A DNA stretch of 16,412 nucleotides from assembly GCA_019242465.1 (NCBI GenBank), contig JAFAVL010000288.1:1-16412 (forward strand), read 5' to 3'. Positions within the stretch are counted from its first letter, which is position 1. The number at the start of each line of letters is the position of its first letter. Position numbers and translations under genes: made by a program. This document shows, piece by piece, positions 2,070 through 16,412 of the stretch. Under the pieces are notes generated by a model. That model was given only the letters and a program-made list of their open reading frames with translations, was not told the DNA's origin and did not search any database. This DNA is from Chroococcidiopsidaceae cyanobacterium CP_BM_RX_35 (GTDB lineage: Bacteria; Cyanobacteriota; Cyanobacteriia; Cyanobacteriales; Chroococcidiopsidaceae).

Positions 2070-3377
2070 TTGAGAGAACGGGGGTTGTTTGACACAGTAG
2101 TGAGTTCTTTTCGCCAAGTGCTGTCATTGTTACCGGACAAACGCACTGGTAAGAATACCCGCTATGGGATGGAAGATGCTGCTTTGAGCGCGTTTAGCGT
2201 ATTCTTCACCCAAACCGCTTCATTTCTGGCATATCAGCGCATGATGGAAGGCAGCAAAGGGCGAAGTAACGCCCAAAGCCTGTTTGGGGTTCATCAGATT
2301 CCCAGTGACAACCACATCCGGGATTTGCTCGACCCAGTGAAGCCGGAGCAGGTGTTTCCTGTGTTTGAGAAAATCTTGCAGGTGTTGGAACAGCAGGGGC
2401 AATTGAGGGGCTGGCGCTCGTTTGCAGATACGCTGTTACTGGCGTTGGATGGCACTGAATATTTCGGTTCGAGCCAAATCCACTGCCCTCACTGTTCAAC
2501 ACGCACCCTGCAGTCAGGAGAGACGCACTACTTCCATACTGTAGTTACCCCGGTCATTGTCGCTCCGGGGCAGGCTCATGTGATTCCATTGGTGCCTGAG
2601 TTTGTCGTGCCGCAGGATGGGTCTGAGAAACAGGACTGTGAGAATGCGGCTGCCAAACGATGGTTATTGCAGTACGGACAACGCTACTGCCCCTTAAAGG
2701 TGACCGTTTTGGGCGATGACCTCTACTGCCACCAGCCCTGATGCCAGCAGCTTTTAGCCCAACAGTTCAACTTCATCCTGGTGTGTCGTCCAGCATCTCA
2801 CAAGACCCTGTATGAGCATCTGGAGGGCATCAACTTACCAACGGTGACAACGAAACGGTGGACGGGCAAAGTGGAGGAAACCTATACCTACCGCTATCTC
2901 AACGGGGTGCCACTGCGAGATGGTGAGGATGCTCTGCTGGTCAACTGGTGTGAACTCACGCTGAGCCGTCCTGATGGGAAAGTGACTTATAAAAACTCAT
3001 TTGCCACTAATCACACCCTGGCCAATGCAACCGTGGCAGAAATCGTCCTCGCAGGTCGTACGCGATGGAAGGTGGAAAACGAGAATAACAACACCCTCAA
3101 AACCAAGGGCTATAACCTGGAACACAACTTTGGCCATGGCAAGCAGTATCTCTCCTCCTTGCTGGCGACCCTCAATATTCTGTCCCTTCTATTCCATACG
3201 TTACTGGAGTTACTCGACCAGAAGTACAAGCTGCTGCGAGCGCACTTGCCCACTCGCAAAACCTTTTTTGATGATTTGCGAGCTTTAACCCGTTACATGT
3301 ACTTCGACAGTTGGGAGCATCTGCTGACCTTCATGCTGCAAGGTCTAGAGTTAGACATCCCTCCCAATACTAGTTGA
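2070..3377 (+). pseudogene. ISNCY-like DDE transposase with one in-frame TGA
   Basis: The two open frames 2070-2741 and 2742-3377 are in the same phase, and together encode a full-length transposase of about 435 residues interrupted only by TGA at 2739-2741 (…DDLYCHQP-stop-CQQLL…). From memory of relatives the interrupted position is usually Leu, so a single TTA/TTG to TGA change would explain it. The DDE residues are recognisable: LALDGTEY (first Asp), VLGDDLYC (second Asp) and RTRWKVENENNNTLKTKGY (Glu, in the Y-less 'KVENENNN' block), followed by LEHNFGHGKQYLSS. The apparent start is TTG at 2070; the frame is open back to 2040, so a CTG or other upstream start is possible. The stop falls right after the second catalytic Asp, so the N-terminal product should be inactive. 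Confidence 0.85.
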
Positions 3378-3724: not shown

Positions 3725-5518
3725 TCAAACTAGATAATAGAGGGGTGCCCTCCGTGCATCGTGCTTCTGGAGCGAGGCACAGTGGTTGCAGTTATTAGCA
3801 TCATCACCCAGAAGCACATAGGCATAGCGGACTGCCTTAAGAGTGGCTGAATCAGTATCATCATCCTCCTGTTCTTGGAAAAGTCGGTCTTTGGAAAACC
3901 ACTCGGCAAAACCAGCTTTGCTGAACAATCGCGCCAACTCTGGGCGCACCCCTGCCAATAGGACTGTGAGCCCAAGCTTCTGAGTATTATGCAGGAAGTG
4001 TTCAAGCCGCTCTAGACAAACAATATCTGGGTTGCGAATGCGCTTAACGCGCAAGACGATCATACGGATGCCTGATTGAATTGCCCGCTCCTTGAGTCCG
4101 TCGAGATAGAGATCGAGAGTGGGTGCAGCTCCAAAGAATATCTCCCCTTCAAGATCAAACAGGATGAGGGAGGTGCAAATTGGATCACTCGCCACTCGTT
4201 CGCGCACAACGCCTTCGTCACTCACTACAAGCTCTGCCCCCTTAATTTTGGCTGCTCGTGACACAAATAGAGCAACAGACAGGACAACACCTGTCAAAAT
4301 TGAGTATTCAATGTCAATGAAAATTGCCGTAAAAACTGTGATCAATACCAGACCAACATCAAACCTTGAAGCTTGAAAGGTATAGCGCAATCGTTTGAGG
4401 TCAATCAATCGGGCGGCAGTAATAATCAGCAGAGCCGCCAGTGCCGCTTTGGGAATGTATTTTGTTAAAGGAGCCAGCACTATCACTGCAATAGCAATGA
4501 TAGTCGCTGTTAAAACACCTGAAAATCGAGTCCTTGCGCCCGCTTGGAAATTGATAGCTGAGCGACTCAAGGAGCCAGAACCGGGTAAGCATTGCATGAA
4601 ACCACCGCTGAGATTGCCTATTCCTTCGGCTAGACACTGCTGGTTGTAGTTGAGTATCTGACCTGTCTGGCTGGCAATTGCTTTAGCAATCGCCAAAGCC
4701 TCTAACAAACCTAGCAAGGCGATTGCTAAAGCACCACGAGACAATTGCGGAATCCAGGCAAACTTAATCTCCGGGATGTGTGGCGGTGGCAGATTGGCAG
4801 GTACAGAGGCAGAAACTGCCACCAGTGTTTTGCCATCAGCACCAGGTATCGTCCAACCCAAGAGATATGTGACAACAGATACGATAACCAGAACAACCAG
4901 CATATCTAATTGGGGCAGTCTGTACCGACGCACCAATCTTCTCAATGCCAGGGCAAGCGCAATTGTCACTATGGTGATCGCCAGCGCCTGGAAGCTGATC
5001 TTGCCCCCAGTAAGTGTAAGCCAAAGGCGAGAGAAAACTTGATCGTGAGCTGTGCCTTTGTCACGCAGACCGAGGGCATTGCCCACTTGTCCAATTGCCA
5101 ACAAAATAGCCGCACCTGTCATGAAGCCTAGAATCACCGACTCTGATATGTAGCGAGTCAAATCACCGAGCTTGAACACGGCAATCAGTATTTGGATGCT
5201 GCCGACCATGATGCCTAGCAGGAACATTGCCTCATATGCATCAAGTCGAGCATCGGGTTCAAAGAAACCCAGGGTACTAAAAACGACGAGCGAAATCGCG
5301 CTTGTCGGACCATTAATCAGATGTGAAGATGAGCCAAAAATGGATGCGATCGCCGTGATAAAGATCGCTGAGTAGAGACCGAAGCGTGGATCAACTCCAG
5401 CAATGAGAGCATAGGCGATACCTTGTGGCAATGCAATTGCTGCAACTGTTAACGCTGCAATCAAATCGGCACGACCCTCGCTCCAGCTATAGTTTAAGTG
5501 TTTCTTCAGGTATGGCAC
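3725..5518 (-). CDS. SulP family sulfate permease with STAS domain
   Basis: A 597-residue inner-membrane secondary transporter of the SulP/SLC26 family, moving sulfate or another anion. Residues ~18-420 form the multi-span transport core: AALTVAAIALPQGIAYALIAG (SulP signature region) and the GGFMQCLPGSGSLSRSAIN segment at ~305-323. A cytoplasmic STAS domain spans ~446-545 (LILFDLEGEIFFGAA … MIVLRVKRIRNPDIVCLERLE), followed by an acidic linker (EQEDDDTD) and a short tail with NCNHC. The start is GTG at 5516-5518 with AAGGAA six bases upstream. It lies 67 bp downstream of the sulfate-binding protein gene and is probably co-transcribed with it. That neighbour favours sulfate as substrate; bicarbonate (BicA-like) is the main alternative. 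Confidence 0.88.
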   Translation of the reverse strand: MPYLKKHLNYSWSEGRADLIAALTVAAIALPQGIAYALIAGVDPRFGLYSAIFITAIASIFGSSSHLINGPTSAISLVVFSTLGFFEPDARLDAYEAMFLLGIMVGSIQILIAVFKLGDLTRYISESVILGFMTGAAILLAIGQVGNALGLRDKGTAHDQVFSRLWLTLTGGKISFQALAITIVTIALALALRRLVRRYRLPQLDMLVVLVIVSVVTYLLGWTIPGADGKTLVAVSASVPANLPPPHIPEIKFAWIPQLSRGALAIALLGLLEALAIAKAIASQTGQILNYNQQCLAEGIGNLSGGFMQCLPGSGSLSRSAINFQAGARTRFSGVLTATIIAIAVIVLAPLTKYIPKAALAALLIITAARLIDLKRLRYTFQASRFDVGLVLITVFTAIFIDIEYSILTGVVLSVALFVSRAAKIKGAELVVSDEGVVRERVASDPICTSLILFDLEGEIFFGAAPTLDLYLDGLKERAIQSGIRMIVLRVKRIRNPDIVCLERLEHFLHNTQKLGLTVLLAGVRPELARLFSKAGFAEWFSKDRLFQEQEDDDTDSATLKAVRYAYVLLGDDANNCNHCASLQKHDARRAPLYYLV

Positions 5519-6715: not shown

Positions 6716-6740
6716 CTACAGTAAATCTATCGATTTACAG
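6716..6740 (-). promoter_or_regulatory. Candidate sulfur-responsive operator upstream of sbpA
   Basis: A palindrome GTAAATC-TATC-GATTTAC (6721-6738) is embedded in a 25-bp block that begins CTACAG and ends TTTACAG. It shares 18 of 25 bases with 10806-10830 upstream of the sulfonate-binding gene, including CTACAGTA and CTATC. In gene orientation the common core is GATAG-RTWTACTGTAG. The block ends 81 bp upstream of the sbpA start. Identity of the regulator (for example a LysR-type CysR/CbsR-like protein) is inference. Confidence 0.55.
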
Positions 6741-6982
6741 ATTGTTTTTGGTAAAGGAGCGCTAAAGTTCATATCCTCACTGTAAGCAACAGGGCATTAC
6801 GAAATTTGCCGTTCGAGACGCCTCCTGCTGATTAGGGTAGTGGTAAATAGTGAGGGTCAGGCGCCAAGCTGCTTGACTGACAAAACTTGAATAGGAGGGA
6901 GGTTTAGCCTTTGGAGACAGGGCATTCGCAGTTTAGTGTGAAAGTTACCACACCTCGATGAGAAGTGAACGCAACCTGGTTA

Positions 6983-7211: not shown

Positions 7212-9587
7212 TTATGAGGCAATGTTCTCAAACGTGATAAAGAGGGGACTTGTCCAAGCTTTAGAGTCATCTACCTGACGACCAAATAAGTAGACTGGTA
7301 GAAAACCGTGAGCTGTAGGTTGAGGTTGTAGCAGAAAACTGCCGCTAACTTCTAGAGGTAATGGATTGGCACTCAGGCGCTCTGCTGACACAAACATATA
7401 GGCTCCACCTAATTCCTGACGTAGAATTCCTTGCTCCAAAAGGTCAATACCTGTGAATTCCCAATTAAATTCAGGACAGTGGATGTATGGGTTTCTTTTC
7501 AAGGGGTTGCCCACCTTGGTGTAGCTGTCAATTTGAATGTGGAGCTGAAAGCGGGCATGAAGCAGATCGGAGAGTTCCAACTCAATTGTATCGGAGTCAC
7601 CATATGTATCAGAACGAAACTCTAGTCTCAAAGGTCCGGCTCGTCTAACATACTCTTCTGGATGCTCGAATCCATATGCTCGATAGCTCTGAACTAGAGT
7701 GTGAGAGTATTCCAGAAATCCCAGCCACTGGCAAGAGCGGTAGCGGTCTTTAATTCTCGCACCCCCCCAACGTAAGCGGATTCGATTCGGTGCATAACCC
7801 GCTTCCGACTGAAGATGGCGATGCCATAGCAAGCCCCGGTCAGTATAAGCCGTAAGTTCGTCCCAACCACAAGTGCCGAAGAATCGGTAGTGGACGTTGA
7901 CTGGTCCTGATGCAGTAAATTCGTCTCCTTGAATGTGCGAACCAGACCAGAGTAGTGCTACAATCCGTTCGCCTGTAGTAGCCCAGGTATGGCGAGAGCG
8001 CAGAGCATGATTAATGGCTGTTTTCGTTAAGGATGGGGCAATAATTCCGGTTACACCCCCCTTCACTCCAAAAACAGCAGAGCCGGGAACTCCGCCACCG
8101 CAACGCCCTCGATGCTCATCACCATTAGCTGAAACTCCCAGCTTATATCCTCGGCTGATAGCATCTTGATAAAACCAGGGAAAGTGTCCCCAAGCCGAAC
8201 CGATTTCAATTAGACGCTCCAGTTTGGGATGATGCCAATCTAGAATGGCACGTCGTCCTCCTACATGAGGAATCAGCAAATGTTGTTCGGGAGCATGAAT
8301 GTAAGCAGCATAAAGGCGATCGACGGGCCAGGCTCCAGGCAAAAGTTCCTGACCCAACATATCTTCGTTCCACTCAAAGGAGCGAACCGATTTACCTTGG
8401 CGATCGCAGGGAAACAGCACCTCGTCATCTAAGAAAACAACGTTGCGATCTCCCCCAGCAGCCGAATTGCCGCACCATTCAGTACCCGGATAGCAGACAA
8501 ACTCTCCTGCTTGCGTCACCTCCCGGCACAGCTTCACGTCCTGCCACCACCGCGACTCATTAATGTTAAAGTCGTTGGCGGTATAGCCAAGAACATCCAG
8601 TCCAGCAACATCCCGACCATAGGCAAAGTTATACTCAGTGCTATTAGTGCCAACGGTGTTGTTGGAGTGGACGTGCAGATCGGCAAAAAAGGCGCGGGGA
8701 TACGCCAAATCGCGCTCGACAGTCACAGGTGCTGGTTCGCTGTACAAGTCGGTACCAATCAGTGCCGCCTGGAATATTGTTTCCCCCATGGTGTCGAGGC
8801 TCAAGTCAGTCCTAGCTACTGCCCAACCTTGTTGTGGAAAGTCGAGTAGTTGAGACTGAGGCAGAAGAGTAGAGGTATTGGTTAAACGGAGCTTTCCTAA
8901 AAGCCCCCGACAAGTATTTCCCCATGCATCTTCTGCTCGTACCCGAAGTGGGAAAGAAACCTCAGTTTTGACCAAGCGCGGACTAATAATGGCTAAACTG
9001 GCTGGCGGTCCCGGAACAACATCAATAACCACATCACCGGGAATTTCAGCAAAACGAGAAGTTCCCACCGGATCGATGTAAGCTCGAAAGCAAAAACCCT
9101 GTTCCACAAATGTTTGTACCCGCGTTCCCGGACCTCCAGCACGGCGATCACCTAGCCGAATTAGGATGTGGTCTCCAGGTTTCAAATAGCCATCCACAAT
9201 GTCAACGATCACTGCCTTTTGGTATGGTCGCTCATGCCCTTTCTGCTCAAAACGGACTGGGAGCGATTGCACTGTTGCTGGGCTTTCGCCTGGAAGGGTT
9301 GGACGAGCTTGATATTCGGCAGAGAGATAATTCGCATCTGTAGGCTCTTCTGTTTGAAACAGTGCCCAGTCGGAGTAGAACTTAAACGTAACCTTGAGCC
9401 AAGCACCATCTGCAATACCAGACGCACCGACCTCATAATCCAGCAACAGCTCTTGCCAACTGCCTGCTTCGATCTGCCTGTGCGAGCAGTACATACGACC
9501 CAAAAAGGGTAAAGTGCTTACATACTCTAGATATCCTTGGGGGCAATTATACTCCCCTAGTAGGGTCTCAAAAGTTTCGTCTGACAT
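7212..9587 (-). CDS. PHP/DUF3604-like metallohydrolase in a sulfonate operon
   Basis: A 791-residue protein with no signal peptide, so probably cytosolic. Residues 1-~190 are beta-rich and unassigned; ~190-290 resembles an Ig/invasin-like repeat (SFPLRVRAEDAWGNT). The core starts at RAFFADLHVHSNNTVG (Asp303, His305, His307), the PHP-superfamily metal motif DLHxH. Then GRDVAGLDVLGYTANDFN, PGTEWCGNSAAGGDRNVVF (Glu370), IPHVGGRR (His441), LIEIGSAWG (Glu461) and SANGDEHRGR (Asp490, His492), in the order found in DUF3604/CehA-McbA-type hydrolases. The second motif, usually TDH, reads TAND (336-339), which would lose a metal ligand. Residues ~550-791 are another beta-rich region. It is 94 bp downstream of the SsuA-like gene on the same strand and likely in its transcript. 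Function is inferred only: cleavage of an ester or similar bond in an organosulfur compound. The family call could be off, but a PHP-like fold is well supported. Confidence 0.65.
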   Translation of the reverse strand: MSDETFETLLGEYNCPQGYLEYVSTLPFLGRMYCSHRQIEAGSWQELLLDYEVGASGIADGAWLKVTFKFYSDWALFQTEEPTDANYLSAEYQARPTLPGESPATVQSLPVRFEQKGHERPYQKAVIVDIVDGYLKPGDHILIRLGDRRAGGPGTRVQTFVEQGFCFRAYIDPVGTSRFAEIPGDVVIDVVPGPPASLAIISPRLVKTEVSFPLRVRAEDAWGNTCRGLLGKLRLTNTSTLLPQSQLLDFPQQGWAVARTDLSLDTMGETIFQAALIGTDLYSEPAPVTVERDLAYPRAFFADLHVHSNNTVGTNSTEYNFAYGRDVAGLDVLGYTANDFNINESRWWQDVKLCREVTQAGEFVCYPGTEWCGNSAAGGDRNVVFLDDEVLFPCDRQGKSVRSFEWNEDMLGQELLPGAWPVDRLYAAYIHAPEQHLLIPHVGGRRAILDWHHPKLERLIEIGSAWGHFPWFYQDAISRGYKLGVSANGDEHRGRCGGGVPGSAVFGVKGGVTGIIAPSLTKTAINHALRSRHTWATTGERIVALLWSGSHIQGDEFTASGPVNVHYRFFGTCGWDELTAYTDRGLLWHRHLQSEAGYAPNRIRLRWGGARIKDRYRSCQWLGFLEYSHTLVQSYRAYGFEHPEEYVRRAGPLRLEFRSDTYGDSDTIELELSDLLHARFQLHIQIDSYTKVGNPLKRNPYIHCPEFNWEFTGIDLLEQGILRQELGGAYMFVSAERLSANPLPLEVSGSFLLQPQPTAHGFLPVYLFGRQVDDSKAWTSPLFITFENIAS

Positions 9588-9681
9588 GCAATTTCTGTAA
9601 ATAGAGCGATCTAGTTGATGTTACCTGCGGTGCAGCCACTTTCCCTACACAACCGCCAGCCGAGCCCTTGAAAAATGTTGC

Positions 9682-10743
9682 TTACTGTTTGCTCGACCCA
9701 GCGGCATCCGTCACCTTAATTGGCTTGGGTATCAGCTTGAGTTGAAAAAACCGATCGGCTAGCTTTTGTTGCTCTGCCAATGCCTCCGACTGAATTGGTA
9801 GGGCAACAAAGCGGTTATTTCGACCTACAGCTAACTGTGTTGTTGGTAGATCGAGCTTCAAATAGGGAGCTAAAAACTTGGCAACTTCCTGAGGATTTTT
9901 CCGTGCCGCAGCTCCCGCGTCTTGAATTTCCTGAAGTAACTCTTTTACCAGGTCAGGATTTTTCTGAGCAAAACTACGGGAAGCCAGGTAGAACTCTCTA
10001 AATGGTACTAAACCTTCTCCATCTACTAAAACACGAGCATTTGCCGTTCGCTGTGCTGACGCAAAATATGGATCTGGAACTGCCCATGCATCTATACTAC
10101 CGCGTTCAAACGCTGCTAGTGCATCTGGTGGTTGTAGGTTGACTGGCTTGATTTGCTCATACTGCAACCCAGCAGCACTTAATGCTTGAACTACGAGGTA
10201 ATGGGGACTAGAACCCTTAGCAAATGCCACCTTTTTGCCTTTGAGGTCCGCCACCGTTTTAATCGTTGAATCGTTAGGCACTAAAATGGCAAGACTCTTA
10301 GGACTAGCTGAGGTATTAGCAATGTATACCACATCTGCTCCTGATGCCTGAGCCACCACCACAGGTGTATCTGCAGTTTGGGCAAAATCAAGCGCACCTG
10401 CACCGACTGCTTGCAACTGTGGTGGACCCGAAGTAAATTCACTCCACTCGACTGAAGTTTTTAGTCGTGCCAGTCGCTTCTCCAATCCTCCCTTGAACTT
10501 AACTAAGAATAGTTCGCCCGATTTCTGATAACCGATCCGCACCACTCTTGCTCCTGTTGCATTGTTAGTAGTGCAAGCAGAAATCGTCAAACTTATACAT
10601 AGTCCTAAGCAAAACAATAAACAAAAGAGATTGAAGCGAGAACAAACTTCTTTAAAGTTAAGTCTTGTCGCTCCTCCAGAGTCTCTTTCCCTAAACCAGT
10701 CCCAAAGAGCCAATAAACTAAAAGCCCAAACCCACCTAGTCAT
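9682..10743 (-). CDS. Aliphatic sulfonate ABC transporter binding lipoprotein (SsuA-like)
   Basis: A 353-residue periplasmic solute-binding protein of the SsuA/TauA/NrtA type. The mature part begins VVRIGYQKSGELFLVKFKGGLEKRL and continues VEWSEFTSGPPQLQAVGAGALDFAQTADTPVV and VADLKGKKVAFAKGSS, the usual sulfonate-binding pattern. A hydrophobic segment (NLFCLLFCLGLCISL) ends in the lipobox LTISAC with Cys57, predicting a lipoprotein. The ~37 residues before the signal segment are unusual; a GGAGGAG sequence lies inside them (10671-10677, minus strand) but no in-frame start codon follows closely, so the ATG at 10741-10743 is kept although its ribosome-binding site is poor. No SsuB or SsuC is next to it. 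The next gene downstream (94 bp) is the PHP-like hydrolase. Upstream at 10806-10833 lies a motif shared with sbpA. Nitrate or taurine as ligand is possible but less likely. Confidence 0.83.
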   Translation of the reverse strand: MTRWVWAFSLLALWDWFRERDSGGATRLNFKEVCSRFNLFCLLFCLGLCISLTISACTTNNATGARVVRIGYQKSGELFLVKFKGGLEKRLARLKTSVEWSEFTSGPPQLQAVGAGALDFAQTADTPVVVAQASGADVVYIANTSASPKSLAILVPNDSTIKTVADLKGKKVAFAKGSSPHYLVVQALSAAGLQYEQIKPVNLQPPDALAAFERGSIDAWAVPDPYFASAQRTANARVLVDGEGLVPFREFYLASRSFAQKNPDLVKELLQEIQDAGAAARKNPQEVAKFLAPYLKLDLPTTQLAVGRNNRFVALPIQSEALAEQQKLADRFFQLKLIPKPIKVTDAAGSSKQ

Positions 10744-10805: not shown

Positions 10806-10833
10806 CTACAGTATACCTATCAATGCGCTGTAG
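10806..10833 (-). promoter_or_regulatory. Candidate sulfur-responsive operator upstream of the SsuA-like gene
   Basis: CTACAG (10806-10811) and CTGTAG (10828-10833) form a perfect 6-bp inverted repeat around a 16-bp centre that contains TATACCTATC. The left 25 bp match the block upstream of sbpA at 18 of 25 positions. It lies 63-90 bp before the start codon. A second small inverted repeat AGACC/GGTCT (around 10772-10799) lies between it and the gene. Confidence 0.55.
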
Positions 10834-10916: not shown

Positions 10917-11075
10917 TCAGTTGGAGTAGCAGAGTAGCTCGACCCAGGAGTCAAGCAGGACCTTTGGCACTTTTATCATTTCAGCTGCCGGAGTGGATGT
11001 ATCAAAAAGTCGTTGTTTCCAAAGTAGACAACGAACTAACGCTAGTGCATCGACAAAGGTAGGGAGTGGTTTACT
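10917..11075 (-). pseudogene. Transposase C-terminal fragment (tentative)
   Basis: The minus-strand reading YSKPLPTFVDALALVRCLLW … LLDSWVELLCYSN ends at TGA (10917-10919). The pattern 'PLPTFVDALALVR-x-LW' followed by a helical tail is what I associate with the C-terminus of cyanobacterial transposases, but I cannot name the family. The nominal ATG (11102) lies in the adjoining plus-strand IS1 fragment, so the upstream part is not native. Only about 50 residues remain. It meets the IS1-type fragment head-on near 11076. Confidence 0.4.
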
Positions 11076-11078
11076 GTA

Positions 11079-11316
11079 AACGGGCATCGTCGAGGCAGAC
11101 AATGCTACAAGTGCAAGCAGTGTGGTCGCCAGTTCCTTGAATCTTATCGCCCAGGAGCGCTACTCAGATGATGTCAAACAATTGTGCATCAAAATGGATC
11201 TCAACGGTATGGGACTACGCGGAATTGAACGAGTCACAGACATTCACCACACGACAGTCATGCACTGGGTTCGAGAAGCTGGACACCAACAAGATCGTAA
11301 AGCGCCATTCTCTTGA
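11079..11316 (+). pseudogene. IS1-type transposase fragment with frameshift
   Basis: The first phase (11079 onward) reads NGHRRGRQCYKCKQCGRQFL then ESYRPGA. At about 11158-11161 one extra C shifts the frame, and the second phase continues YSDDVKQLCIKMDLNGMGLR, GIERVTDIHHTTVMHWVREAG. Together these give the InsA-like zinc-ribbon and helix-turn-helix of cyanobacterial IS1-family transposases. The first zinc-ribbon half is missing upstream, and after WVREAG the similarity is lost; the frame stops at 11314-11316. The DDE part is absent, so the copy is dead. Confidence 0.72.
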
Positions 11317-11346
11317 CTCACTGCATTTGATGTCGTACAGGGTAAT

Positions 11347-11801: not shown

Positions 11802-13196
11802 TTATCGGATAGCGAAAACGGTACCGACTAGACCCAGTAGTACAACTAATCCCAATGCTATAGCAAGTTGCTGAGTCAATCGGTGCTCATGGGATAGTCG
11901 AGCTATCAAAGGTAAGTTCACTAGCGCACTGGCAATCGATGCCAGCACGGCTCCAGTCCCTGCTACGTGAGCAGAGAGAGTACCATGAGTAGCCAGGGTC
12001 GCTGCTGTAGCTACTGCACTGGCGCTAGAAATCAATCCCCCAACAACACTGACAGCGTAAAAACCCAATTGACCGAGCAGCTTCTGCGCTAGAACTGCAC
12101 CAATTTGGAGTGCTAGAAAAATTAGTCCAAACTTCAATGCTGATTTGAGCGAAAAAGGCGACTCAAAATTCAGAGCTGGAGGAGCGTCTTCTGCCTGTTT
12201 GCTCCCTGGCTCTGAGTCAAGCAGCATCAAGGGCGACCTGACCAGTAGCAAGCGGCGGGCAGTCACCCCCATGCAGGCGGCAAGCATCAGAGCTAGTGCC
12301 AGCACCGAAGACCGCAAAGCCTGTGGCGATAGGATAAGCAACAGCACCGCATTGCGTACTACCATAGCCGCTGTAGCCAGCATAATCCCCCGATAGGCCA
12401 CGTCTGCCAAACGCCCCTGGGTTTCGTACACCCGCTTGGATAGCTCGACGACTGCGACACTGCTGTTGACCAAACCACCTAAAAAGCTAGCTACCTCAAT
12501 GCCTCGTGTCCCATAAATCTTCCACAGCACGTAGTTAATAAAGCCAATGCCTGCTACCAGAATCACAGTTAACCAAATCTCCTGGGGCTGCACCAATCCC
12601 CACGGATCTATACTGCCCTTGGGCAAAGCCGGATAGATGACAAACGTTAACATCGCCAGCACGATTGCTGACCGGAGTTCGGCGGCGCTCAGTCCCAGGC
12701 TGAAGCCTTTGAGTCGTTCTTTCCCAGAGAGTGTAGCCGCCGCGATCGCCGCCACAGCCACAGGAGTCACGGTCTCCCCCTGTCCACATAACACCCCAGT
12801 GAGTCCTGTTACCAGCAGGGCCACAGAAGTCGTCAGCTCAGTACCCTTACCAACTCGCAAAGTCTGAAGGTTCAGGAAAACGAGCGGCACTCCCAATAGG
12901 GCGATACTCAACAGGGCGTAGTTTTGACCAAGTAAGCCACCCAAGCTCCCTAACAGCGCCACAAAACCGAAGGTACGCACTCCCGCCTGCTTACGTCGCC
13001 ACTCTCGCTCCAGACTGACAAACAGTCCAATTGCCAGAGCCAGCAGCAGACGCTCGATCTTTTGCCAGTACAGCAACTCAGAGAAACCTGAGGGGATGGA
13101 ATCTGGAGTGGGAGCAACGGCAATCCAATCAAGCGTCAGGAGGTCCAGGGCTTGGTTGCATATGACTGAGAGCGTTTCAACATCGTAAGAGGGCAT
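11802..13196 (-). CDS. MgtC/SapB family membrane protein with DUF4010 domain
   Basis: A 464-residue polytopic inner-membrane protein with about a dozen hydrophobic segments. The N-terminal MgtC/SapB-like module carries LLLALAIGLFVSLEREWRRK followed by AGVRTFGFVALLGSLGGLLG, the typical 'GLxxGLERE…GVRTF' signature. The C-terminal half fits DUF4010: LRSAIVLAMLTFVIYPALPKG, YGTRGIEVASFLGGLVNSSV and the GGLISSASAVATAATLA repeat. Function is not settled; MgtC relatives act in growth under low Mg2+ or phosphate stress and modulate ATP synthase or phosphate uptake in enterobacteria. The ATG at 13194-13196 has GGAG about 11 bases upstream. A Pho box on the same strand lies about 355 bp upstream (13552-13581), compatible with control by phosphate limitation. 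The Nudix gene follows after 26 bp. Confidence 0.85.
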   Translation of the reverse strand: MPSYDVETLSVICNQALDLLTLDWIAVAPTPDSIPSGFSELLYWQKIERLLLALAIGLFVSLEREWRRKQAGVRTFGFVALLGSLGGLLGQNYALLSIALLGVPLVFLNLQTLRVGKGTELTTSVALLVTGLTGVLCGQGETVTPVAVAAIAAATLSGKERLKGFSLGLSAAELRSAIVLAMLTFVIYPALPKGSIDPWGLVQPQEIWLTVILVAGIGFINYVLWKIYGTRGIEVASFLGGLVNSSVAVVELSKRVYETQGRLADVAYRGIMLATAAMVVRNAVLLLILSPQALRSSVLALALMLAACMGVTARRLLLVRSPLMLLDSEPGSKQAEDAPPALNFESPFSLKSALKFGLIFLALQIGAVLAQKLLGQLGFYAVSVVGGLISSASAVATAATLATHGTLSAHVAGTGAVLASIASALVNLPLIARLSHEHRLTQQLAIALGLVVLLGLVGTVFAIR

Positions 13197-13697: not shown

Positions 13698-14942
13698 ATG
13701 CTAACACTTAATCACACTTACCGAATTTATCCAACTCTAGACCAACAAGCTCAAATGCTCGAATGGTTGGAGACTTGTAGGCGGTTATATAATCGCTGTC
13801 TACGAGATTTAAAGGATTGGATAAGCAGTCGTAAGTGTAGTATTGATTTCTGCTCTTTGGATAGGGAGTACATCCTGTCTCCTGACATACCTTTTCCTAA
13901 TTACTTGGAGCAGAAAAGACAACTAACCCAATGGAAGAAAACTAACCAATACCTAAAGAAGGTGTATTCTCAAGTCACACAGGATGTGGTTAAAAGGATG
14001 CACAATACTTGGGAAACTTTTAAACAAAGAGGTTATGGATTTCCTCGGTTTAAAAAGTTTGGTCAGTACCGTTCTTTATACTACCCTCAGTTTAAAGCTA
14101 ACCCAATAACAGGTTGTCATATTAAACTGCCGATGATAGGTAACATACCTATTAACCAGCATCGACCTATTCCTGATGGTTTTAAGGTTAAGGGTGTCAG
14201 GGTAGTATCAAGAGCAAGAAATACTCAATGGTATGTAGTTGTCACAATTCAGTGTGATGTATCTACACCAGACACCAAACCATTTGGTAGGGCGATTGGC
14301 ATAGACATTGGGCTGGAAAACTTCTTGACAACCTCTGACAACTTCACGGTAGAACCTGCTCGTTTCTTTCGGGATTTACAAAGTAGGCTGAGAGTGCTGC
14401 AACGTAGAGCCAGTAGAAAGCAGAAGCGGTCTAAGAACCGGGAGAAGTCACAAGTTAAAGTTGCTAGATTACACCATGAAATATCGAATATTCGTAAAAA
14501 CTTTCACGCTTCTGTAGCTCATCAACTGTGTGACCAAGCGGATACTATTTTTGTTGAAGATATAGATTTTCGTGTGTCTTCAAAAGGATTCCTTGGTAAA
14601 CATATGTTGGATGGTGCCTTTGGTCAATTCAGGACGTTGCTGCAATGGGTCTGTTGGAAAAGAGGTAAATACTTTGGCGAAGTAGACCACAAATTTACTT
14701 CTCAAATTTGCCCAAGTTGTGGGTCTCATACTGGAAAGAAAGAGCTTTCAAACCGAGAGCATCATTGCCCTGAATGTGGGTATCAAACTACCCGTGATCA
14801 TGCTGCTGCTCAAGTGATAAAATTACGTGGTGAATCTAATATAGTACCCATGGACGGTGGGGAAGGGAAACTGTCTGCTGACTGCGTACTAACGGGGAAG
14901 ACAACTTCTAGTCAAGTGCAACGCAGAAATGTCTCAATGTGA
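13698..14942 (+). CDS. tnpB: TnpB, RNA-guided nuclease of IS200/IS605 type
   Basis: A 414-residue TnpB, ancestor-type relative of Cas12, cutting DNA guided by an RNA made from the element's right end. Layout: N-terminal helix-turn-helix/wedge part (HTYRIYPTLDQQAQMLEWLE), a wedge region with GYGFPRFKKFGQYRSLYYPQ, then the split RuvC nuclease: GRAIGIDIGLENF (Asp203), ADTIFVEDIDF (Glu287) and TTRDHAAAQV (Asp367). A zinc ribbon lies between the last two RuvC parts: CPSC (338, 341) and CPEC (357, 360). All catalytic and zinc residues are present and length is normal, so it may be active. The ATG follows TAAACTATAGTC, a possible -10 region. No tnpA is nearby; movement would need transposase in trans. 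Confidence 0.92.
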   Translation: MLTLNHTYRIYPTLDQQAQMLEWLETCRRLYNRCLRDLKDWISSRKCSIDFCSLDREYILSPDIPFPNYLEQKRQLTQWKKTNQYLKKVYSQVTQDVVKRMHNTWETFKQRGYGFPRFKKFGQYRSLYYPQFKANPITGCHIKLPMIGNIPINQHRPIPDGFKVKGVRVVSRARNTQWYVVVTIQCDVSTPDTKPFGRAIGIDIGLENFLTTSDNFTVEPARFFRDLQSRLRVLQRRASRKQKRSKNREKSQVKVARLHHEISNIRKNFHASVAHQLCDQADTIFVEDIDFRVSSKGFLGKHMLDGAFGQFRTLLQWVCWKRGKYFGEVDHKFTSQICPSCGSHTGKKELSNREHHCPECGYQTTRDHAAAQVIKLRGESNIVPMDGGEGKLSADCVLTGKTTSSQVQRRNVSM

Positions 14943-15139: not shown

Positions 15140-15169
15140 ATTTACCTTCACTTAACTTAAATTTAACCA
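15140..15169 (+). promoter_or_regulatory. Pho box facing the methyltransferase pseudogene
   Basis: Three 8-mers repeat every 11 bp: ATTTACCT, CTTAACTT, TTTAACCA, with spacers TCA and AAA. The last two fit PyTTAAPyPy(T/A) perfectly; the first fits at 6 of 8. The box ends 59 bp before the ATG at 15229, a normal position, with a possible -10 (GATTAT) near 15184-15189. It points away from the Pho box at 13552-13581. Confidence 0.65.
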
Positions 15170-15228
15170 CAACAGCTCGATCGGATTATCGGAGATTCAG
15201 CCGCCAAGTTGACGAGGAAGGACAGAAG

Positions 15229-15762: not shown

Positions 15763-16412
15763 TTAGAACGTAAAGGTGGTACGCAGGGTGCCAACATAAT
15801 CTGCCGCGTTTCTGCTGTTGGCTTCAGGGTTGAAGATAATTAATGCACCAGGCGTGATGGCAATATTGTCATTCAGTCGGTAGCGGTAGAATATCTCTGC
15901 TTGATAGGAAACGCTGTTATCGATACGGCGTCTGTTCCTGAAACCCCCTTGGCTGGAGCTAGAAGCAGATTCTCGGGCATCGTTAGAAGTCACGCGCGGC
16001 GGTTGACCAAACAGCAGCCCCAACAGGCTGCCCTTTGAGCCAATGTCTGGTAGGGCAATGCCGCCAGCGAAGTACCAAATATCGGCTTTCGCTCCCCTAT
16101 TTCCACTTACGCTACCTCCATTGGCAATGTTGGCACTACCACCGGCCAGGGGCGAGATACTTCTGGAAGCAATCGCCTGAGTATAGCCGCCCCAACCAAA
16201 AATAATCAGATGTTTGTTGGGACGAATGCTGGCTTCCACACCATAGTTGTTGGCTGAGGTGGGAACGTTACCAAATGGTGAGTTTGCTAATTGAGTCCCT
16301 GTGTTGTCAAAAATGGAGACTGTACCATTCCGTCTTCCAACGCTGTCGTAGGAGCGGGCGTATGTTAGACCTAGGTTGAAGTATTTGCTGGCATTGATAT
16401 CGACCTGAGCGA
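15763..16412 (-). CDS. OprB-type / iron-uptake porin, C-terminal part
   Basis: The minus-strand frame is open to the window edge and gives about 216 residues; the GTG at 16239 is not the true start, since coding continues upstream (FNLGLTYARSYDSVGRRNGT … NNYGVEASIRPNKHLIIFGW). Alternating beta-strands, Gly/Asn-rich loops, and an end in TLRTTFTF with a terminal aromatic residue mark an outer-membrane beta-barrel. The segment FYRYRLNDNIAITPGALIIFNPEAN is the hallmark end of cyanobacterial SLH-OprB porins, often annotated as iron uptake porins. The N-terminal SLH domain lies outside the window. It would form a passive or solute-selective pore in the outer membrane. Convergent with the methyltransferase pseudogene. 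Confidence 0.88.
   Translation of the reverse strand, partial: AQVDINASKYFNLGLTYARSYDSVGRRNGTVSIFDNTGTQLANSPFGNVPTSANNYGVEASIRPNKHLIIFGWGGYTQAIASRSISPLAGGSANIANGGSVSGNRGAKADIWYFAGGIALPDIGSKGSLLGLLFGQPPRVTSNDARESASSSSQGGFRNRRRIDNSVSYQAEIFYRYRLNDNIAITPGALIIFNPEANSRNAADYVGTLRTTFTF

Follow-up and report, generated by a model that had tools for sequence, protein, structure and literature searches.

A DUF3604 hydrolase gene beside an SsuA-like gene and a candidate organosulfur operator in a Chroococcidiopsidaceae cyanobacterium

We have analyzed a stretch of 16,412 nucleotides (the window) from Chroococcidiopsidaceae cyanobacterium CP_BM_RX_35 (contig JAFAVL010000288.1). It contains a gene coding for a DUF3604 protein, a hydrolase of the PHP superfamily, which lies directly behind a gene coding for an SsuA-family substrate-binding lipoprotein. 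Judging from sequence and gene context, we propose with moderate confidence that this protein is a cytoplasmic, metal-dependent PHP-type hydrolase which belongs to a sulfur-acquisition regulon and acts on an imported organosulfur anion. It probably helps the cells to obtain sulfur from an organic compound. There is good support for a link with sulfur acquisition in the window and in part of the cyanobacteria; among other loci it concerns a minority.

Four genes of the window are transcribed on the minus strand in the order ssuA-like, DUF3604, sbp and sulP, as shown in Table 1. They appear to make up two units, ssuA-DUF3604 and sbp-sulP, each preceded by what seems to be the same organosulfur operator. 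The gap between the SsuA-like and DUF3604 genes is 94 bp (9588-9681), and a scan of its minus strand found no terminator-like site. The SsuA-like protein belongs to the SsuA family and falls below the cut-off of the taurine equivalog TIGR01729 (95.9 bits, cut-off 304); its translation has a lipobox-like ISAC, judged by eye. No ssuB or ssuC gene lies beside it: It is an orphan. The SulP permease scores 351 bits with TIGR00815 (sulP), under the cut-off of 380.

Table 1. Features of the window.
Feature	Coordinates	Strand	Evidence
SsuA-family substrate-binding lipoprotein, 353 amino acids	9682..10743	-	TIGR01728 (SsuA_fam) 239 bits (cut-off 163.5), NMT1 PF09084 76.6 bits
DUF3604/PHP-superfamily hydrolase, 791 amino acids, ATG start	7212..9587	-	PF12228 29.9 bits (cut-off 20.4), motifs, invariant alignment columns
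Sulfate-type binding protein Sbp, 349 amino acids	5586..6635	-	TIGR00971 327 bits (cut-off 155.5)
SulP-family permease behind Sbp	3725..5518	-	PF00916 281 bits
Candidate sulfur-regulon operator upstream of the SsuA-like gene	10807..10832		5 mismatches to TACRGTAAATYGATNRATTTACYGTA, 19.3 bits
Second operator copy before sbp-sulP	6717..6742		3 mismatches to TACRGTAAATYGATNRATTTACYGTA, 21.8 bits
Third operator-like site	15165..15196		17.7 bits (matrix score, no shuffle comparison)
OprB-type porin open reading frame	15763..16412		
IS605 OrfB/TnpB-type transposase	13698..14942		
MgtC/DUF4010 membrane protein	11802..13196		
Possible transposase remnants	2070..3377 and around 11000..11340		Judged by eye

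The candidate operator is a near-palindrome, roughly TACGGTAA-n-TCGATnnA-n-TTACCGTA, common to the regions upstream of both units. We built its consensus, TACRGTAAATYGATNRATTTACYGTA, from these two regions and from matches in related loci. Sites were also scored with a matrix derived from 22 sites and their reverse complements, found in 30 ssuA loci of other cyanobacteria; these sites are independent of the window, but they were chosen with a consensus partly drawn from it. Significance was estimated from 300 first-order Markov shuffles. The core of the first copy sits 63 bp before the start of the SsuA-like gene and the second copy 81 bp upstream of the start of sbp; neither score was reached by any of the 300 shuffles. 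Upstream of the hydrolase gene itself there is no clear site (2.9 bits, reached by 3 of 300 shuffles). A narrower pattern, used earlier with zero mismatches, was discarded: It matched in one of 39 genomes, with no obvious sulfur gene adjacent. About 33 bp separate the third operator-like site of the window from a broken methyltransferase-like frame which follows it (from 15230, plus strand, by eye).

The operator is also found in other cyanobacteria. Allowing up to 6 mismatches, the consensus gave 31 sites in 30 ssuA loci (112,405 bp), 10 sites in 30 sbp loci (114,065 bp) and 2 sites in 14 DUF3604 loci (228,863 bp, two of these loci repeating others), all of them cyanobacterial. No site was found in 69 other loci, mostly from proteobacteria (L012-L080, 1,285,901 bp, L010 left out). 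Five mononucleotide shuffles of the ssuA and sbp sets gave 0 to 0.2 sites on average. When whole genomes were scanned with at most 2 mismatches, sites appeared in 10 of 12 cyanobacterial genomes, chosen mostly for their SsuA or Sbp matches; there were 51 strand-hits, palindromic sites being often counted twice, versus 0 for the reversed pattern. The two genomes with no site at this threshold are G107 and G002.

We scanned with profiles 20 of the 37 open reading frames (ORFs) which flank these sites. They include two each of SsuD, SsuA and NMT1-type binding proteins, and one SfnG. One ORF is DszC/SfnB-like (404 and 302 bits, under both cut-offs) and another resembles mercaptopyruvate sulfurtransferase (117 bits, cut-off 250). 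An ABC permease, an OprB porin and a glutathione S-transferase are also among them. Of the remaining eight, four gave no match; the others code for an aldo/keto reductase, an alpha/beta hydrolase, a Na/Pi cotransporter and an ApbC-like protein. Since ORFs were taken from both sides of each operator, some of them are not the regulated gene. The operator upstream of ssuA-DUF3604 is thus common to ssu and sfn genes of other cyanobacteria, which bears out the sulfur operator that an earlier note, made from the sequence of the window, had put forward. Clusters of ssu and sfn genes (L176-L199) are marked by this operator, for example at five places in 26 kb of one contig (G366:C56). In another cyanobacterium (L195), the operator adjoins an OprB gene; an ORF of this type is also found in the window.

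The hydrolase frame is intact and, judging from its sequence, codes for a real protein. At least 1664 homologues with an E value of 0.001 or lower were found among 7993 scored candidates. The nearest relatives are 75-83% identical; the best other protein among the matches listed has 83% identity along its full length. The match to PF12228 (DUF3604) exceeds the gathering cut-off, which places the protein in this family, with an alignment confined to residues 509-567; many of the listed homologues also have PF12228 in their precomputed annotation. The motif blocks named in the earlier note are in place: DLHVH (H305/H307), IPHVG (H441) and NGDEH (H492). GGDRN is present as well. An alignment of 42 homologues shows no variation at H305, H307, E370, G378, G379, D380, H441, D490, E491 and H492, and hardly any at N382. 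Candidate metal-site residues are H305, H307, E370, H441, D490 and H492, in agreement with a PHP-superfamily set of ligands; PHP hydrolases bind metals through residues like these. No signal peptide was seen by eye, so a cytoplasmic hydrolase would need an importer for its substrate.

Structural and literature searches gave little. A search of PDB sequences with the single protein gave no match, and the hydrolase profile matched one PDB sequence (E value 0.63), a 138-residue uncharacterised protein aligned outside the PHP region. In the open-licence literature (closed journals and other names being outside its scope), we found no function for DUF3604 under that name, which appears there in work on transposon mutants of another organism, unrelated as far as its listing shows; PHP domain, sulfonate, hydrolase and sulfur were nowhere combined. 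Judging from listings, the same literature holds nothing on topic for cyanobacterial sulfonate or CysR regulation.

Among cyanobacteria, the hydrolase is rare: It is found in 4 of 388 genomes at an E value of 1e-50, two of which (G001 and G002) entered the set through already known loci. Besides the window, we have studied 12 cyanobacterial genomes with this gene (L001-L009, L011, G104, G052). In 11 of them, all except L004, permeases of the CysT/CysW type are found upstream of the hydrolase gene (by eye in L089 and L090), accompanied by an Sbp-like protein in every stretch that extends far enough. In three of nine loci (L003, L005 and L007), the operator precedes the Sbp-CysT-CysW-DUF3604 operon, its start lying 73-87 bp upstream, with scores reached by 0 of 300 shuffles. 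The ssuA-DUF3604 pair of the window is found in none of the 12 genomes. The Sbp-like proteins of nine loci are 70-96% identical to the L002 copy. They have SYGVAK in place of the SYDPTRE block of the window Sbp, so that the Asp is missing. Given the role which this Asp presumably has, these proteins may bind something other than free sulfate. PstS-like proteins of one sequence cluster are encoded directly upstream of the hydrolase gene in L002, L004, L009 and L011, and one gene off in L001, whose PstS-like protein was scanned and contains PBP_like_2 with a double zinc ribbon.

The Sbp of the window belongs to a different clade: It is 30-34% identical to the DUF3604-linked Sbp-like proteins of other cyanobacteria. 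We had considered it as the usual partner of the hydrolase, an idea that we have dropped, since elsewhere it pairs with SulP in the absence of DUF3604. Of 388 genomes, 5 contain an orthologue of it, with 74-87% identity; one of these orthologues is a fragment. The operator is present in four of the five (L122-L125), and the remaining stretch (L126) begins inside the gene. In L152, L153 and L154 some 34-92 bp lie between the end of the operator and the aligned Sbp start, SulP follows directly, and DUF3604 is absent from the 18 kb read. A methyltransferase-like ORF similar to that of the window is found near the Sbp-SulP pair in L152.

We then considered all the loci with this hydrolase. A genome scan confirmed 130 loci; our counts cover the best 80 and the window, 81 in all, with neighbour genes counted with a codon-usage ORF caller. 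In 73 of the 81 loci, the hydrolase gene has, at most four genes away, a gene for an importer or a binding protein; four types are represented, unrelated to one another. Within this distance, 35 loci have a DASS symporter alone, 22 a TauABC-like system, one both of these, 8 Sbp-CysTW, 5 the tripartite system TctABC, one SsuA only and one, the window, SsuA and Sbp. The remaining 8 loci with none include stretches at contig ends, such as L014 and L029, and L001, where Sbp is one gene too distant.

We also compared the genes near the hydrolase gene (one to three genes away, 432 genes) with those further off (five or more, 521 genes). Near and far counts are 39/0 for DASS, 25/2 for SsuA-like, 25/5 for ABC ATPase, 19/5 for TauC-like, 21/0 for SBP_bac_11, 16/1 for CysT/W, 17/3 for Crp, 13/0 for GntR, 6/1 for Sbp (p 0.037), 7/2 for TctC (p 0.05) and 4/1 for TctA. 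The idea that LysR, FMN (flavin mononucleotide) monooxygenase and SfnB genes concentrate within the nearest three genes was rejected, with counts of 5/12, 4/9 and 0/2. Cluster names (DASS, TauB/TauC-like, SsuA_fam, GntR-UTRA, Crp, TctC, TctA and TctB) come from single representatives. Since the cluster profiles come from the same loci and many loci are related, this contrast measures concentration near the hydrolase gene, not sulfur specificity. The earlier note had proposed a tabulation of neighbours, and its expectation largely holds: Importers of the sulfate/sulfonate type and of other anions are concentrated beside homologues, which are not devoid of association with sulfur genes. SsuA-like proteins of proteobacteria share only about 22-36% identity with the SsuA of the window. 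The small SBP_bac_11 protein is found in 22 of the 80 genome loci (for example, 6434-7315 in L010), where its gene frequently adjoins that of the hydrolase in opposite orientation; it is very weakly CysP-like.

Sulfur enzymes are present in some of these loci. SsuD, SfnB or NtaA/DmoA-type enzymes are found in 6 of the 80 genome loci (L065, L067, L069, L074, L076 and L079); in loci of the Burkholderia type, SfnB or NtaA/DmoA lies beside the hydrolase gene. L065 and L069 are near-copies in the stretch, and L076 and L079 are alike. In nine of 21 genomes of relatives of P. xenovorans (about 127 Mb), there are 22 copies of SfnB above the cut-off, so the chance of finding one within 10 kb is well under 1%. 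Close copies (at least 55% identical to that of L069) are found only in L065, L069 and L074, two of which are the near-copies. A PhsA-like molybdoenzyme is found in 3 of the 80 loci (L029, L032 and L035). In L035 it is accompanied by Fe-S and DmsC-type partners, a set whose composition could be that of the sulfite dehydrogenase SoeABC. A supposed sulfite dehydrogenase beside the hydrolase gene of Methylocella turned out to be a formate dehydrogenase.

Plasmid loci of the hydrolase clade give a similar picture: Four of nine contain organosulfur or sulfite enzymes. These are an annotated sulfite dehydrogenase in Methylosinus trichosporium OB3b, SfnB and SfnG in Rhizobium etli NXC12, SsuD, MsuE, SfnG and SsuA in Azospirillum B510, and NtaA/DmoA and DszC-like genes in Rhizobium C104. 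The Rhizobium N324 locus has a TauE/SafE exporter only, and that of IE4771 an oxidoreductase which is 33% like SsuD. In the loci of Klebsiella, Pantoea and A. brasilense, sulfur enzymes are neither annotated nor found.

The nearest characterised enzymes that we found, judging from motif layout, are the carbamate hydrolases CehA and McbA. The cehA gene has 2385 bp (PMC4850150). According to PMC8292978, CehA cleaves carbamate esters, its residues His313, His315, His453 and His495 are important, and McbA has a PHP domain. The hydrolase of the window has a PHP-type domain and four His residues in the same order, with spacings of 2/134/51 versus 2/138/42 in CehA, as compared from published positions, unaligned. 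It differs in its score with NF038032, 20.7 bits, which misses the cut-off of 80. We therefore do not class the protein as a CehA, though its mode of action may be that of a PHP hydrolase. No sulfur context appears in the parts of PMC4850150 and PMC8292978 that we consulted. Over 21 genomes, NF038032 has matches in all 21, none above the cut-off; it also matches 12 of 14 control genomes. In genome G005 the DUF3604 gene is on contig C3 and the sole NF038032 match is on a different contig. Nothing named CehA was found among the matches listed in two plasmid searches and in a homologue search from a distant DUF3604 protein.

Other known systems are partly similar. As in SsuABC-SsuD and TauABC-TauD, an SsuA-family protein is encoded upstream, the operator is shared with ssu genes, and an enzyme with no signal peptide accompanies part of an importer. 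The window differs from them in having a PHP-type hydrolase in place of an FMN- or 2-oxoglutarate-dependent oxygenase, and no adjoining permease or ATPase. Neither an SsuD or TauD oxygenase nor an ABC permease or ATPase was found among the scanned ORFs. The absence of SsuD, TauD and sulfatase, claimed by the earlier note, holds for 10 profile-scanned ORFs of the 25 listed and for the transposase. AtsR/AtsBC importers accompany the sulfate-ester enzymes AtsK or AtsA, an arrangement in which an SsuA-like importer adjoins an enzyme that opens a sulfate ester; a comparable role for DUF3604 is hypothetical, and AtsK and AtsA have folds other than PHP. Distant DUF3604 proteins of alphaproteobacteria (28-30% identity) share PF12228, and GntR and an importer adjoin them in two of three loci. 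They differ in their importers and neighbours, and the one protein read (P0121) has DLHGQ, not DLHVH. In an Agrobacterium vitis plasmid (L171), a 28% identical DUF3604 gene comes after a set of GntR, substrate-binding protein, permease and ATPase genes, and a gene of the TauE/SafE sulfite-exporter family is found about 4.5 kb away.

A mechanism may be outlined from operator position and from the companion genes elsewhere. Under sulfur shortage, a regulator would act through the TACGGTAA-type operator to permit expression of ssuA-DUF3604 and sbp-sulP. In this cell, the organosulfur anion would be imported by the orphan SsuA together with permeases encoded elsewhere; in relatives, Sbp-CysT-CysW, TauABC-like, DASS or tripartite systems, which we know as neighbours only, would do so. 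The imported compound would be hydrolysed at the predicted metal centre (HxH, E, H, D-x-H), and its sulfur group, or a sulfur-bearing part, freed for assimilation. The hydrolase would thus take the position which SsuD, TauD or a sulfatase has in known cassettes. Release of the sulfur group and release of a sulfonate are both possible.

Several results weigh against such a role in sulfur acquisition. In 71 of the 80 genome loci, the stretch read has no SsuD/SfnB/NtaA-type enzyme or SoeABC-like complex; a sulfur theme in the proteobacterial loci is thus hypothetical. SfnB and FMN monooxygenase genes are no closer to the hydrolase gene than expected by chance. The operator is missing in four of the nine Sbp-DUF3604 loci tested (L001, L002, L009 and L011) and weak in L006 (12 of 300 shuffles) and L008 (8 of 300); G002, the genome which carries the hydrolase gene of L006, has no site at 2 mismatches or fewer. 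DASS and tripartite importers also transport di- and tricarboxylates, and the nearest characterised enzymes by motif layout act on carbamates, not on sulfur compounds. The scarcity of sulfur enzymes and the transport of carboxylates by these importers would agree with a CehA-like ester or carbamate hydrolase acting on an organic anion which need not contain sulfur, with a carrier proper to each lineage and a sulfur context due to local recruitment. The order of the four His residues and the predominance of DASS (36 loci, within three genes), with TctABC also present, fit this explanation. However, the NF038032 score is low, the G005 match is not on the DUF3604 contig, the sulfur operator is found in two different cyanobacterial arrangements, and SsuD, SfnB, SfnG and sulfite dehydrogenase are found as neighbours. 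We consider this explanation rather unlikely.

If the hydrolase does act on organosulfur compounds, it might only trim them, cutting an ester, amide or carbamate bond, so that a simple sulfonate (taurine or isethionate, for example) is set free and desulfurated by other enzymes such as SsuD or TauD. An unactivated C-S bond is, on chemical grounds, unlikely to be hydrolysed, CehA cleaves carbamate esters, and the SsuD, SfnG and MsuE of Azospirillum B510 and the SfnB and SfnG of R. etli could act downstream. On the other hand, neither the Sbp-CysT-CysW-DUF3604 loci of cyanobacteria, where TauD was not searched for, nor the scanned ORFs of the window gave any gene of the SsuD, SfnG, SfnB or NtaA/DmoA type. 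Trimming is a possibility, if on the unlikely side. A bolder proposal is that the DUF3604 proteins of this clade form a new mechanistic class, a PHP-fold organosulfur hydrolase which by its own action frees sulfate or sulfite from a sulfate ester, sulfamate or sulfonate taken up by the cell. Cyanobacteria and proteobacteria would have this class in common, each lineage with a different anion importer. To our knowledge, organic sulfur is released by oxygenases, formylglycine sulfatases and sulfatases of the metallo-beta-lactamase type. We regard this new class as doubtful. Finally, the hydrolase gene may have lost an Sbp-CysT-CysW partner and now be read through from ssuA, their adjacency being accidental. 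None of the 12 other cyanobacterial genomes has this pairing, and the window contains a transposase and broken reading frames; against this are the short same-strand gap with no terminator-like site, the intact frame, as close to its nearest relatives as described above, and the operator common with sbp-sulP. An accident seems to us quite improbable. The earlier note had proposed an enzyme which releases sulfur, or a sulfonated moiety, from a compound delivered by the binding protein. This is partly supported: The operator and the importers favour a role in organosulfur use, and both the release of sulfur itself and delivery by this SsuA are hypothetical. In 11 of 12 other cyanobacterial genomes, the neighbours are CysT-CysW-type permeases with a divergent Sbp, not SsuA.

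A few other features of the window should be mentioned. The porin ORF lies close to its end, and the transposase between the porin region and the MgtC/DUF4010 gene. MgtC/SapB is also annotated near the homologue of Rhizobium N324 (L173).

In summary, our preferred reading, a metal-dependent PHP-type hydrolase serving sulfur acquisition, gives a testable role to a large family for which the literature searched offers no function. If it is true, a PHP-type hydrolase would be added to the enzymes which free sulfur from organic matter, and this might hint at a natural setting for the pesticide-degrading carbamate hydrolases of the PHP type. Quite apart from this, the operator is a handle on an organosulfur regulon of cyanobacteria.

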